Shown in pieces: positions 23,669 through 29,362 of a stretch of DNA of 64,000 nucleotides. The number at the start of each line of letters is the position of its first letter. The first letter of the stretch is position 1. Below the pieces are notes generated by a model. It searched no databases. It was not told the DNA's origin and worked only from the letters and a program-made list of their open reading frames with translations. Made by a program: the position numbers and the translations under genes. Origin of the DNA: an uncultured Desulfobacteraceae bacterium (lineage in GTDB: Bacteria > Desulfobacterota > Desulfobacteria > Desulfobacterales > Desulfatirhabdiaceae); assembly GCA_903953895.1 (NCBI GenBank), contig CAJBLH010000196.1, positions 1 through 64,000 on the forward strand, given 5' to 3'.

Positions 23669-26080
23669 CTAAGGCAGCTTTGCATCAAAATGCTGAATCA
23701 GTTTATCTGAAATGCCACGATGATGTGTATTGACAGCCTCATCTTCCAAAGTTCCGGCGGCGGAACGATAGATCAGCCGGAATGAAAGGCTTTTTTTATC
23801 TGAAGGCAGATGCCCGCCCTCAAACACATCGAACAGCAGGATGCGCTCCACGATCGGATCACGCATGGCCTGGACCATTTCGATAATCTGACCGGACTCC
23901 AGGGCTTTCGGTAGAATCAGCGTAATATCCCTTGCGACAGCCGGATATCTGGGAATCGCCGCAGCCTGTTGAAAATTGGGAACAGCGGCAAAAAGCTTCC
24001 GAATATCCAGCTCAAAGACATATATCGCCTGTTTGATATTGAAATATTCCAGCGTTTCCGAATGCATCTGGCCGATATGTCCCACCACCTGCCCGTTGCA
24101 CTGGATGCCGGATGCATAACCAGGTTTCAGATAGGAACAGGATTGGGCCGTATCCCTGGAAAACCGGGCGTGATGAATATGAAGTGCAGCCAGAAGCGAT
24201 TCAACCACGCCTTTGATGTCGTAAAAATCGCACGCCGTATCCGGCATATGCCACGAAACTTCCTGGCGGGCGCCTGTCCACAGCCCGCAAAGCATTTCAA
24301 TTTCGTCTGGCAGTGCATCCTGACCATTGCTGATAAATACATTACCAGCCTCAAAGAGCTTTAGATTTCTGGATTGCATCGAAAAGTTCCGATGCACGGT
24401 CTCCAGCATGCCGGGAATCAGCGAGGTGCGCATGATTGCCTGGTCTTCGCTCAACGGATTGAGAACGCCAAGAGCCCGCATTCTGAGATCACCTGGTTCC
24501 AGCCGGAGATAATTACAGGAGCTCGGGTGAACGAAACTATAGGTAATGGTTTCCGAAAACCCCAGACCGGTCATCAGCCGCAGAATCTGCTCCCGGGGGC
24601 TTTGAGACGGAGTTGAACGAGTCGATCCTGCAGAGATCACGGGAAACGTGGTCGGGATTCGGTCGTAACCGGAAATTCTGGCGATTTCTTCCACCAGATC
24701 CACCGGCCTGGAGACATCGACGCGAAATGACGGCGGCGTTACCTTTCTCTGGTCCGGGTTCATCGGCTCTACCGTAAAGCCGACAGACTCAAGCATGCGG
24801 TCCATGTCTGCAGAATCGATTTGAGTTCCCAGCAGCCGGTTTGCAGCATCTGCGCTAAAAACCAGCGGTTGTCTCTTCTGAATGATCGGTCGCTCATCGA
24901 TCAGCCCTTCAACCAGAATCCCACCACAGATATCGACCATCAGGGCTGCGGCCCGGTCCACAGCAAAAACGGCTCCTTCGGGATCCACGCCGCGCTCGAA
25001 CCGGTGGGATGCGTCCGTATTCAGTCCGAAATATTTGGCGGTTTTCCGAATGCCTGCTGGTTCGAAACAGGCGCTTTCAATCAGAATCGACTGCGTGTCG
25101 GCTTCAATTTCGGAATTGCATCCGCCCATGACCCCTGCGACGGCAACCGGTTTTTCCCCATCGCAGATCATGAGCATATCCGCAGTCAGGGTGCGCGATT
25201 TGTGGTCAATCGTGATGAACGATTCTCCTGCAGCAGCGGTCCGCACCACAATGCGCTGACCGGCCAGACGATCGAAGTCAAAAGCATGCAGGGGCTGGCC
25301 GGTTTCCATCATCACAAAATTGGTGATATCCACCACATTGTTGACTGGTCGGATGCCAACGGATATCAGCCGGTCCTGAAGCCAGAAAGGAGAAGGCTGA
25401 ACGCCGGCTCCTGTCAGAATTCTGGCTGCATAGCGGGGACAGTGGCCGGGCGCCAGGATCGAAACGGAAGTCATCTGATGAATGTCGCCTTTACCTTGAG
25501 GCAGCTTTATCACCGGGTACGATAGCGAATTTCCCTGAATCGCTGCAACCTCCCGGGCGATTCCGATCAGGCTGAGGCAATCGGAGCGGTTGGGCGTCAG
25601 GCCGATTTCAAGCACCCAATCCGACAGACTCAGGGCCGTAGCCAGAGAATCGCCGACCATCAGAGACGCATCGAGAATCATAATACCACTATGATCCGGC
25701 CCAAGCCCCAGTTCGCCCTCACTGCACAACATACCTTCAGACCCGGCCCCCCGAATCACACCGGCTTCGATGAGCGGTCCATCGGGCAGTTGTGTTCCGG
25801 GAAGCGCCAGAGCGGTTAAGCAGTCAATCTGAACGTTGGGCGCTCCACAGACAACAGCTACATGGGCTTTTCCGGAGTCCACCACGCAGCACCGCAGTTT
25901 GTCTGAATTCGGATGCGAAGTTATGCCGATAACCCGGCCGACAACCACATTTTTTAAATATTCGTAACGATCGACAAGTGCTTCAACCTCAAGACCCGCC
26001 ATGGTCAAGGCGTCGGCAAGCGCATCGACATCCATTTGGATTGGAACATAGGACTTCAACCAGTTTAAACTTATTTTCAT
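23669..26080 (-). CDS. pheT: Phenylalanine--tRNA ligase beta subunit
   Basis: An 803-residue beta chain of the (alpha-beta)2 PheRS. It begins MKISLNWLKSYVPI, the classic start, so I place the start at 26080 and not at the in-frame codon 42 bases upstream. The EMAP-II-like tRNA-binding domain is at about 45-150 (VGRVIGITSHPNSDKLRCC). The B3/B4 editing domain, the B5 domain (near VVNNVVDITNF and the following region) and a C-terminal anticodon-binding domain (FPAVARDI-type: IPRYPAVARDITLIL) are in the usual order. It is co-transcribed after pheS. Confidence 0.96.
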   Translation of the reverse strand: MKISLNWLKSYVPIQMDVDALADALTMAGLEVEALVDRYEYLKNVVVGRVIGITSHPNSDKLRCCVVDSGKAHVAVVCGAPNVQIDCLTALALPGTQLPDGPLIEAGVIRGAGSEGMLCSEGELGLGPDHSGIMILDASLMVGDSLATALSLSDWVLEIGLTPNRSDCLSLIGIAREVAAIQGNSLSYPVIKLPQGKGDIHQMTSVSILAPGHCPRYAARILTGAGVQPSPFWLQDRLISVGIRPVNNVVDITNFVMMETGQPLHAFDFDRLAGQRIVVRTAAAGESFITIDHKSRTLTADMLMICDGEKPVAVAGVMGGCNSEIEADTQSILIESACFEPAGIRKTAKYFGLNTDASHRFERGVDPEGAVFAVDRAAALMVDICGGILVEGLIDERPIIQKRQPLVFSADAANRLLGTQIDSADMDRMLESVGFTVEPMNPDQRKVTPPSFRVDVSRPVDLVEEIARISGYDRIPTTFPVISAGSTRSTPSQSPREQILRLMTGLGFSETITYSFVHPSSCNYLRLEPGDLRMRALGVLNPLSEDQAIMRTSLIPGMLETVHRNFSMQSRNLKLFEAGNVFISNGQDALPDEIEMLCGLWTGARQEVSWHMPDTACDFYDIKGVVESLLAALHIHHARFSRDTAQSCSYLKPGYASGIQCNGQVVGHIGQMHSETLEYFNIKQAIYVFELDIRKLFAAVPNFQQAAAIPRYPAVARDITLILPKALESGQIIEMVQAMRDPIVERILLFDVFEGGHLPSDKKSLSFRLIYRSAAGTLEDEAVNTHHRGISDKLIQHFDAKLP

Positions 26081-26164
26081 CGGATCAACACCTTGCAGAT
26101 CATTACTAATTCCGGATTGCACTGACGACAGACCACTCCGGCGTATTTACAGCCGCCTGAAAGG

Positions 26165-27172
26165 CTAGAACTGTTTCAAAAACCGGATGTCGTTTTCATA
26201 ATATTTTCGGATGTCGTCAATTCCGAATTTCAGCATGGCAATCCGCTCGATGCCCATTCCAAAGGCAAACCCAGAGTAGCGGGACGTGTCATAGCCGACA
26301 TTCTCGAAAACCGCAGGATGAACCATTCCTGAGCCAAGCACTTCGAGCCATCCGGTCTGCTTACACACCCGGCATCCCTTGCCCCGGCACATGACACAGA
26401 GGATGTCGACCTCCGCACTGGGTTCGGTGAAGGGGAAAAAGCTGGGGCGAAATCTCAGACTGGTCTGATCGTCGAACATCTGGTGGACAAAAGCCGTCAG
26501 AATGCCTTTCAAGTCCCCAAAAGAAATGGATTCACCCACCACCAGCCCTTCGACCTGGTGAAACATAGGCGTATGGGTAATGTCCGAATCGCACCGGTAC
26601 ACCTTGCCAGGCGCGATAATCTTGACCGGAGGGGCGTGTTTTTCCATGTACCTGACCTGAATCGGTGAAGTATGGGTTCTAAGGACGATGGACTCCGAAA
26701 CATAAAACGTGTCCTGCATGTCTCTGGCCGGGTGATTTTTGGGGATATTCAGGGATTCGAAATTGTAGTGATCCAGTTCAACCTCAGGACCTTCCGCAAT
26801 ATCAAACCCCATGGCTGTGAAAATTTCGCATATCTGTCGGGTAATCCGGGTGATGGGATGGAGTGTGCCCTGAAAGACGGTGCGGCCAGGCAATGAAACA
26901 TCTATACCGACATCTTCTGTGGCCAGACGGGTTTCAATTTCCAGAAGTGCTTTTTGCAGGGCTTCTTCCAGAATCATTTTGATCTCATTGGCTCTTTTGC
27001 CTGCCATCGGACGCTGTTCTGGCGGCAACTGGGAGATGTTTCGGAGATATTGGGTGACAAGCCCCTTTCTGCCCAGATACTGTACGGACAGTGCTTGGAT
27101 TTGCGCTGTCTGCGAAACAGACTGAAGCTCGCTCTTTGCCTGGTGTAAAATCTGTTCTATTTCTTGTTCCAC
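26165..27172 (-). CDS. pheS: Phenylalanine--tRNA ligase alpha subunit
   Basis: A catalytic class II synthetase subunit. Visible features are the N-terminal coiled coil, motif 1 region GFDIAEGPEVELDHYNF, motif 2 (HTPMFHQVEGLVVG) and motif 3 (GFAFGMGIERIAML). The open frame extends to 27307, but its first 45 residues (MGMSGSKCQPLRS...) are not PheS-like and begin in a 16-bp palindrome (27305-27320). GTG at 27172 (VEQEIEQILHQAKSEL) gives 335 residues, the normal length. It has no clear ribosome-binding site, so the exact start is uncertain. Confidence 0.92.
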   Translation of the reverse strand: MEQEIEQILHQAKSELQSVSQTAQIQALSVQYLGRKGLVTQYLRNISQLPPEQRPMAGKRANEIKMILEEALQKALLEIETRLATEDVGIDVSLPGRTVFQGTLHPITRITRQICEIFTAMGFDIAEGPEVELDHYNFESLNIPKNHPARDMQDTFYVSESIVLRTHTSPIQVRYMEKHAPPVKIIAPGKVYRCDSDITHTPMFHQVEGLVVGESISFGDLKGILTAFVHQMFDDQTSLRFRPSFFPFTEPSAEVDILCVMCRGKGCRVCKQTGWLEVLGSGMVHPAVFENVGYDTSRYSGFAFGMGIERIAMLKFGIDDIRKYYENDIRFLKQF

Positions 27173-27304
27173 GATTTTATGCTCTGCTGTAAGAAAGGCG
27201 GGGTCGGATATTCTATGGATCAGACGGTGACTTTTGGCGCCATTGGCAGGTTCCCTTTGTATTGAAATGGACCGAAGTGGCTGACATTTCGATCCAGACA
27301 TCCC

Positions 27305-27320
27305 CATCTGCCGGCAGATG
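27305..27320. repeat. 16-bp perfect palindrome between rplT and pheS
   Basis: CATCTGCCGGCAGATG is perfectly self-complementary and sits in the rplT-pheS spacer. A transcript hairpin here could affect pheS expression. It is not followed by a T-run on the minus strand, so it is not a typical terminator. Confidence 0.4.
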
Positions 27321-27386: not shown

Positions 27387-27737
27387 TCAGACCTGGTGTG
27401 CTGCGGTTCTGACAAGACTGCTAAATCCGGTTGGGTCTGCAACGGCCAGTTCTGCAAGAACTTTTCGATCCAGCGCAATTCCGGCAATTTTAAGCCCGTG
27501 CATGAATTTACTATAGGACAGGTCGTTCATCCGTGTCGCTGCATTGATTCTGGCGATCCAGAGGCTGCGAAAATCCCGTTTTTTGACCTTGCGATCCCTG
27601 TAAGCATAGGCAAGCGCCCGGTCAACGGTGTCTGCGGCTGTCCGGAAAAGTTTGCTGTGGCCGCCACGAAACCCCTTGGCCAGTTTCAATATCTTGTTTC
27701 TTCTTCTCCTTGCCTTAAAGCCACGTTTTACTCTCAT
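27387..27737 (-). CDS. rplT: 50S ribosomal protein L20
   Basis: A 116-residue L20, normal length, needed for early 50S assembly and often an autogenous repressor of its operon. Typical features are the basic start [20 protein letters not shown] and [10 protein letters not shown]. It follows rpmI in the infC-rpmI-rplT-pheS-pheT gene order. Confidence 0.96.
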
Positions 27738-27850: not shown

Positions 27851-28048
27851 TTATCCGTTCGGAAGTAATAATTTCAGCTCTCTGACATTGGATTTATCGA
27901 TAATCTGACTTTTTCTCAAAGATCGTTTTCGCTTGGTGGTCTTTTTGGTCAAAATATGGCTGCCATGAGATTTTGAGAAAACGAATTTTCCGGTTCCAGT
28001 TCGCTTAAATCGCTTTGCAGCAGAACGATTGGTTTTGATTTTCGGCAT
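27851..28048 (-). CDS. rpmI: 50S ribosomal protein L35
   Basis: A 65-residue L35 beginning [20 protein letters not shown] and containing the [16 protein letters not shown] basic stretch. It lies between infC and rplT. Confidence 0.96.
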
Positions 28049-28237: not shown

Positions 28238-28771
28238 CTATTTGGGAGAGAGGATCATCACCATTGTTCGTCCTTCAAACTTGGCTGCCTGCTCGACAAT
28301 GGCGATTTCCTGGGTTTCCATAACCACTTTTTCCAGCAAATCTTTGGCAGCCTGAGACAGTGTTATCTCACGGCCCCTGAAGACCACAGTCAGTTTTACT
28401 TTATCTTTTTTATCGATAAACTTTCGAATATGATCGATTTTAGTTTGCAGGTCGTGTTCGCTGGTCTTGGGACGTATTTTTATTTCCTTGATCTGGAAAG
28501 AACTCTGCTTTTTTTTGGCCTCCTGCTTTTTCTTGGTTTGCTCGTATCGATAACGGCCATAATCCATTATCTTGCAAACCGGAGGGGCCGCATTGGGTGA
28601 AATCTCAACAAGATCAAGCCCAAAATCATTGGCTACAGCCAGCGCTTTGTATGTAGGGATTACGCCTATCTGATTACCATCCGGATCGATTACCCGCACC
28701 TCTTTAGCGCGAATATCCCGGTTGATATTGGTCTTATCGGTTTTGACTGGTCTTTTGGTTGTTGGAACTAT
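28238..28771 (-). CDS. infC: Translation initiation factor IF-3
   Basis: IF-3 binds the 30S subunit and checks start codons. The N-domain (INRDIRAKEVRVIDPDG), the linker helix rich in Lys and Gln, and the C-domain (EIKIRPKTSEHDLQTKI, then VKLTVVFRGRE) are complete. I prefer an AUA start at 28771: a perfect AGGAGGT lies seven bases upstream. The alternative ATG at 28792 lies upstream of that ribosome-binding site and has no convincing site of its own. In E. coli infC starts on AUU, which lets IF-3 repress its own translation; an AUA start would work the same way. The AUA reading gives 177 residues; the ATG reading adds seven (MSSGGAG). Confidence 0.93.
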   Translation of the reverse strand: MVPTTKRPVKTDKTNINRDIRAKEVRVIDPDGNQIGVIPTYKALAVANDFGLDLVEISPNAAPPVCKIMDYGRYRYEQTKKKQEAKKKQSSFQIKEIKIRPKTSEHDLQTKIDHIRKFIDKKDKVKLTVVFRGREITLSQAAKDLLEKVVMETQEIAIVEQAAKFEGRTMVMILSPK

Positions 28772-28786
28772 GCCTGCACCTCCTGA
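28772..28786 (-). promoter_or_regulatory. Strong ribosome-binding site that decides the infC start
   Basis: AGGAGGT is followed by GCAGGC and then ATA on the minus strand. It lies downstream of the ATG at 28792 and would serve only the AUA codon. Confidence 0.55.
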
Positions 28787-28922
28787 TGACATATATTATT
28801 CTGATACCTTCTGCACCGAAGATAAAAAACAACTGTTCCGGGGCCGGTAACCATCTGAAACTTGACGAAAACAGAATTTTTTTCCGGTTCATCAAACAAT
28901 CTAAACAGTTAAATCTCTTAAG

Positions 28923-28951
28923 ATGCTATATGACAACGTTAAGAAATGCAA
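28923..28951 (-). promoter_or_regulatory. infC: Candidate sigma-70 promoter for infC operon
   Basis: On the minus strand TTGCAT, a 17-base spacer and TAGCAT match the -35/-10 pattern. Initiation near 28916 would give a leader of about 145 bases before the infC start. The rest of the 363-base gap to the ferredoxin gene (28793-29155) shows no gene. Confidence 0.45.
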
Positions 28952-29155: not shown

Positions 29156-29362
29156 ATGGTGCAGAAGATGACACGGATCAAAAAACCCGTTATAGATTTG
29201 AGCGACTGTATTCTTTGCGGCGTATGCCAGGATGTTTGCCCGGAAGTTTTCTGGCTGAACGACGCCGGCTATATTGAGATATTGGAATTGTTGGATTATC
29301 CCTGTTCCGGGGTGGATGATGCCATCAAAAATTGTCCGGCGGATTGTATTGCCTGGGAGTGA
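29156..29362 (+). CDS. Small [4Fe-4S] ferredoxin
   Basis: A 68-residue electron carrier. Cysteines are in DCILCGVCQDVCPEVF (near residues 17-32) and in NCPADCI at the C-terminus, as in monocluster ferredoxins of the Clostridium/Desulfovibrio type. ATG 29171 (MTRIKKPVIDLSD) is an alternative start. It is divergent from infC and followed after one base by the DVU0298-family gene, so the two are probably translated together. Confidence 0.85.
   Translation: MVQKMTRIKKPVIDLSDCILCGVCQDVCPEVFWLNDAGYIEILELLDYPCSGVDDAIKNCPADCIAWE

Follow-up and report, generated by a model that had tools for sequence, protein, structure and literature searches.

The window, by which we mean the whole stretch of 64,000 nucleotides that was analysed, comes from a Desulfobacterales bacterium and carries infC, the gene for IF-3, on its minus strand, followed in order by rpmI, rplT, pheS and pheT. 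The features on which the analysis draws are the following.

28238–28771, minus strand: infC (IF-3) coding sequence, with AUA as first codon 177 codons long, followed by a stop.
28769–28771, minus strand: predicted AUA start codon, at a near-fixed spacing from the Shine-Dalgarno sequence that is conserved in close relatives, in the order and in about half of the further phylum families sampled.
28778–28784, minus strand: Shine-Dalgarno sequence AGGAGGT, invariant in the 7-sequence alignment.
28790–28792, minus strand: upstream ATG in the same frame, rejected as the start and absent from the six closest relatives.
28796–28798, minus strand: TAA stop in frame, the upstream limit of the open frame as read from the sequence.
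28923–28951, minus strand: putative promoter (TTGCAT, 17 bases, TAGCAT; TATCAT in relatives), inferred from a block conserved in the 7-sequence alignment.
27851–28048, minus strand: rpmI (bL35), ATG start, control gene.
27387–27737, minus strand: rplT (bL20), ATG start, control gene.

The infC product scores 220 bits against the NCBIfam infC equivalog (cut-off 60), matches Pfam IF3_N and shares 49% identity with E. coli IF-3 across 171 positions; if read from AUA, its N-terminus would be fMet-V-P-T-T-K. Read along the minus strand, the start region runs from the TAA (28798–28796) through the ATG (28792–28790) and AGGAGGT (28784–28778) to GCAGGC and the ATA (28771–28769). The first-pass annotation had placed a perfect AGGAGGT seven bases before the ATA at 28771, and this was confirmed in the sense that AGGAGG ends seven bases before it. 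Its remark that the ATG at 28792 has no good ribosome-binding site also holds, the nearest upstream purine run being an AAGG 14 bases away, and this ATG is the sole ATG, GTG or TTG between the in-frame stop and the ATA.

The putative promoter, a block that was not listed by a scan for consensus promoters, would yield a leader of about 145 nt. A leaderless start at the ATG at 28792 was considered and rejected, the conserved promoter-like block (an inferred promoter) lying 131–159 bases upstream of it. The infC genes of the window and of E. coli are orthologous, with rpmI, rplT, pheS and pheT downstream in both genomes, and differ in the upstream gene, which is thrS in E. coli; in the window thrS is not directly upstream, and a small 4Fe-4S ferredoxin-like gene (29156–29362, plus strand) diverges from infC instead. 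The longest frames of pheS (26165–27307) and pheT (23669–26122), both on the minus strand, extend upstream of the starts given by the family profiles (residues 87 and 15, respectively), and the choice of first codon for these frames may be wrong too.

Few start codons are as rare as AUA, and the motif that precedes it here is not strong when taken from a single sequence. AGGAGGT alone occurs in the window at chance level (4 matches against 4.92 expected); AGGAGGT followed by six bases and ATA occurs once against 0.07 expected, and at least once in 7 of 100 shuffles. Across the whole of the organism's own genome AGGAGGT-N5-7-ATA shows no enrichment, with 10 matches against 14 for the reversed control, under a pattern strict enough that weaker sites would escape it. 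One of the ten places is infC, four (L243, L245, L246 and L247) have a canonical start in frame upstream, and four (L242, L244, L248 and L249) stay open for fewer than 30 codons; the last, L251, has an open frame of 66 codons that lacks a canonical start. The single-sequence statistics for the predicted AUA start are thus weak and the case rests on conservation, for which reason relatives were compared.

The closest relatives (L002–L007) comprise six distinct sequences whose IF-3 proteins are 86 to 97% identical; five of these coincide with the loci of five genomes of the same genus (L082–L086), and the infC search gave no match in a sixth genome of that genus (G005). All six retain AGGAGGTGCMGGYATA and AGGAGGTGC(A/C)GG(C/T)ATA. 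In the 7-sequence alignment GGAGGT is immediately preceded in each of the six by an in-frame stop, TGA or TAA, which prevents any codon further upstream from starting infC there, and no ATG, GTG or TTG is left in any of them before the conserved domain.

The comparison was extended to 239 infC loci, the window included, collected by a protein search (80 loci) and an IF3_N search reaching from the organism's own genome to the phylum. Removal of 24 repeats of identical stretches (23 called ATA and 1 ATC) left 215 distinct loci. The caller scored Shine-Dalgarno match and spacing alike for in-frame ATG, GTG, TTG, CTG, ATT, ATC and ATA, and considered a codon only if it stood 12 or more positions ahead of an anchor residue. 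It called ATA at 173 loci, ATC at 19, ATT at 10 and CTG at 6, with TTG, GTG and ATG at one locus each and no call at four (L033, which is truncated at the end of its contig, L142, L144 and L216). The ATA calls were clear-cut at 159 of the 173 loci, where the Shine-Dalgarno score reached 6 or more and every competing codon scored lower by 2 or more. These totals include eight ambiguous loci (L095, L134, L137, L140, L141, L179, L204 and L212): L179, at which ATT and ATA score equally, is entered as ATT; L095, with GCA where L126 has ATA, is a weak call counted as TTG; and family f125 (L137, L140 and L141) ties between ATA and GTG and is counted as ATA. At L133, L153, L155, L208 and L225, infC apparently starts on CTG after a Shine-Dalgarno-like site.

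Within the order, ATA leads in 49 of the 52 families sampled by family code, a count that omits 14 of 66 family codes (because they repeated named loci, gave no match or were not retrieved); two families have ATT, one of them tied with ATA, and one has ATC. The phylum sample is non-random, made up of the better-scoring loci plus one or more for each listed family, and its 49 further families divide into 25 with ATA, 11 with ATC, 4 each with ATT and CTG, 1 each with GTG and ATG, and 3 with no call. Twenty further loci were also called; five gave ATG, all in family f92, where AUG is the call at all six loci (L215 and L252–L256), and the other 15 gave 9 ATA, 4 ATC and 2 ATT, some of them weak. 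On a FastTree tree of the short IF-3 protein for 211 loci, from which the ambiguous loci were set aside for the count, the fewest changes were approximately 15 with all codons as states and approximately 14 for ATA against the rest.

Three observations support reading the conserved ATA as a start codon rather than as an isoleucine codon. ATA makes up 173 of the 202 ATH calls at the start position, against 515 of the 2029 isoleucine codons counted from the anchor onwards in the same 173 genes. Where the call is not ATA, it is ATC, ATT or CTG in 35 of 38 cases, each one base from AUG. Lastly, 108 distinct loci (91 ATA, 10 ATC and 7 ATT) contain no ATG, GTG or TTG at all from the in-frame stop to ten codons before the conserved-domain anchor, and thus offer no canonical alternative. 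Of the 173 ATA loci, 68 do have some ATG, GTG or TTG in frame upstream (ATG at 20), and in single genomes, the window included, the sequence by itself is compatible with an upstream start.

The same caller behaves differently on the neighbouring genes, where it called ATG at 215 of 233 rpmI hits and at 213 of 227 rplT hits, in both cases with repeats and a single E. coli gene among the hits. Applied to E. coli itself, it returned ATT for infC, which is the known start, and ATG for rplT; for E. coli rpmI it made no call. The Shine-Dalgarno score of infC was higher than that of rpmI in 146 of 169 pairs and lower in 13, and higher than that of rplT in 131 of 161 pairs and lower in 13, in a comparison that favours infC somewhat, since for infC the best-scoring candidate was taken, whereas rpmI and rplT were tied to a start near the expected position. 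The complementary 16S tail, GGATCACCTCCTT, was present in five of the ten related genomes searched, and a longer form of it was not found in the organism's own draft genome.

Nine IF-3 positions that we take to be important for codon discrimination were compared by alignment with the E. coli protein. Six are kept in the window protein (Y70, Y75, R99, K110, R131 and R168), and R129, R116 and R147 are replaced by V, K and K, respectively.

Sequence comparison shows where the start lies and that it is conserved, how infC contrasts with rpmI and rplT in the same operon, that its Shine-Dalgarno sequence is the stronger one, and that the organism's own genome has one ordinary initiator tRNA. Translation at AUA, and feedback by IF-3 upon it, are likely by analogy with E. 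coli. We consider it very probable that infC starts on AUA 28771, where the initiator tRNA would be the ordinary one with anticodon CAU and IF-3 would exert autogenous feedback. The near-perfect Shine-Dalgarno sequence, at a good spacing, would hold the 30S subunit in place while the initiator tRNA reads AUA despite a third-base mismatch. As IF-3 rejects third-base mismatches, plentiful IF-3 would lower initiation on the infC mRNA and scarce IF-3 would raise it, the same autogenous control as is established for E. coli infC and the simplest reading of the data here. The AUA start would thus probably let IF-3 limit its own production. The start codons of the two genes, AUU in E. coli and AUA in the window, both differ from AUG at the third base, and the infC Shine-Dalgarno sequence scores 5 in E. 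coli against 8 in the window. That the E. coli AUU start carries negative feedback is stated in the accessible part of one report (PMC5472188). In the accessible part of another, which does not extend to AUA with CAU, initiation in vitro at weak third-base pairs is reduced by IF-3 (PMC10158994).

An alternative is that the AUA start only fixes a low rate of initiation, on which the level of IF-3 exerts no feedback in this group. The strong Shine-Dalgarno sequence might do no more than compensate for a weak codon, and one lineage, f92, does have AUG. We nevertheless regard this alternative as unlikely: a single A-to-G transition would convert AUA into AUG, yet AUG was found at only 1 of the 215 loci and in one family, which points to selection, and the in vitro behaviour of IF-3 at weak third-base pairs also speaks against it. 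The persistence of AUA fits selection for a codon against which IF-3 discriminates, as autogenous feedback from an AUA start would have it. By these calls, such feedback is not indispensable in the phylum, because f92 has AUG throughout and f125 ties with GTG. Since ATA is the codon in 49 of the 52 sampled families of the order, one might go further and suppose that the Desulfobacterales keep AUA for its own sake, a very strong Shine-Dalgarno sequence combined with an especially IF-3-sensitive codon giving a feedback so steep that it is replaced neither by AUG nor by AUU or AUC, which are just as near; this extension is tentative, and we think it rather doubtful.

Far less probable is a start at the ATG at 28792, with AUA as an internal isoleucine codon and the Shine-Dalgarno-like sequence as part of the coding sequence. 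This ATG is in frame and open, and a caller limited to ATG, GTG and TTG would pick it; the N-terminal IF-3 peptide would then contain SSGGAGIVPTTK, as opposed to (M)VPTTK from the AUA. However, the ATG lacks a ribosome-binding site, it is missing from all six closest relatives, which have an in-frame stop there instead, and isoleucine codons elsewhere in these infC genes are mixed. As it is not common to these relatives, the ATG is most likely a chance occurrence. The proposal of the first-pass annotation that infC starts on AUA is therefore supported: AUG is not conserved at 28792, and the orthologue comparison that it had suggested finds ATA recurring at the same spacing in the close relatives and through the order.

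A dedicated initiator tRNA with a UAU anticodon is very improbable, for although the UAU form of the anticodon-stem pattern occurs in two related genomes (twice in G030, once in G049), neither ARAGORN nor Rfam recognises a tRNA at any of the three places and all three were rejected, and the organism's own genome has a single match to the initiator pattern, a tRNA with anticodon CAT. The CAT form is listed in 57 of the 58 genomes searched, the organism's own included, and only the GAT form in G057, in a search by exact anticodon-stem pattern that would miss an initiator tRNA with another stem. The tRNA that reads AUA would thus probably be the ordinary CAU initiator.

Non-AUG starts of infC have precedents. 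In Myxococcus xanthus, likewise a former deltaproteobacterium, infC (dsg) has a non-AUG start, but it is AUC; our literature search brought no confirmation of it. The available portion of a 2026 study gives an AUA start for Staphylococcus aureus infC by ribosome profiling, with autoregulation suggested (PMC13009471). As described there, that case shares with the window the gene, the AUA codon and an extended Shine-Dalgarno motif; it comes from a different phylum and was shown by profiling, whereas the AUA of the window is supported by comparative evidence. Excerpts of other papers give AUU for Bacillus subtilis infC (PMC1805508) and ATC for Streptomyces, where the gene is likewise non-AUG outside the gammaproteobacteria, but not ATA, and where annotation often misses the ATC start (PMC5472188). 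The first-pass annotation had offered the locus as a useful example outside the gammaproteobacteria; the AUA stands, but a non-AUG infC had, according to the accessible parts of these sources, already been stated for B. subtilis, Streptomyces and S. aureus, in the last case with AUA itself. Our results suggest that infC may often be misannotated in these genomes too, as the available text reports for Streptomyces (PMC5472188).

Both the principle of autoregulation and an AUA start of infC are thus already known, and the element that may be new is the breadth of AUA use in the Desulfobacterales and the phylum. Order- or phylum-wide use of AUA for infC was not met in our literature search, which had most subscription journals beyond its reach. 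AUA looks like the rule for infC in the order and is the commonest choice in the sampled part of the phylum. Being one transition from AUG yet seldom changed, it would make these lineages, including f92 with its AUG, a large natural experiment on IF-3 feedback.
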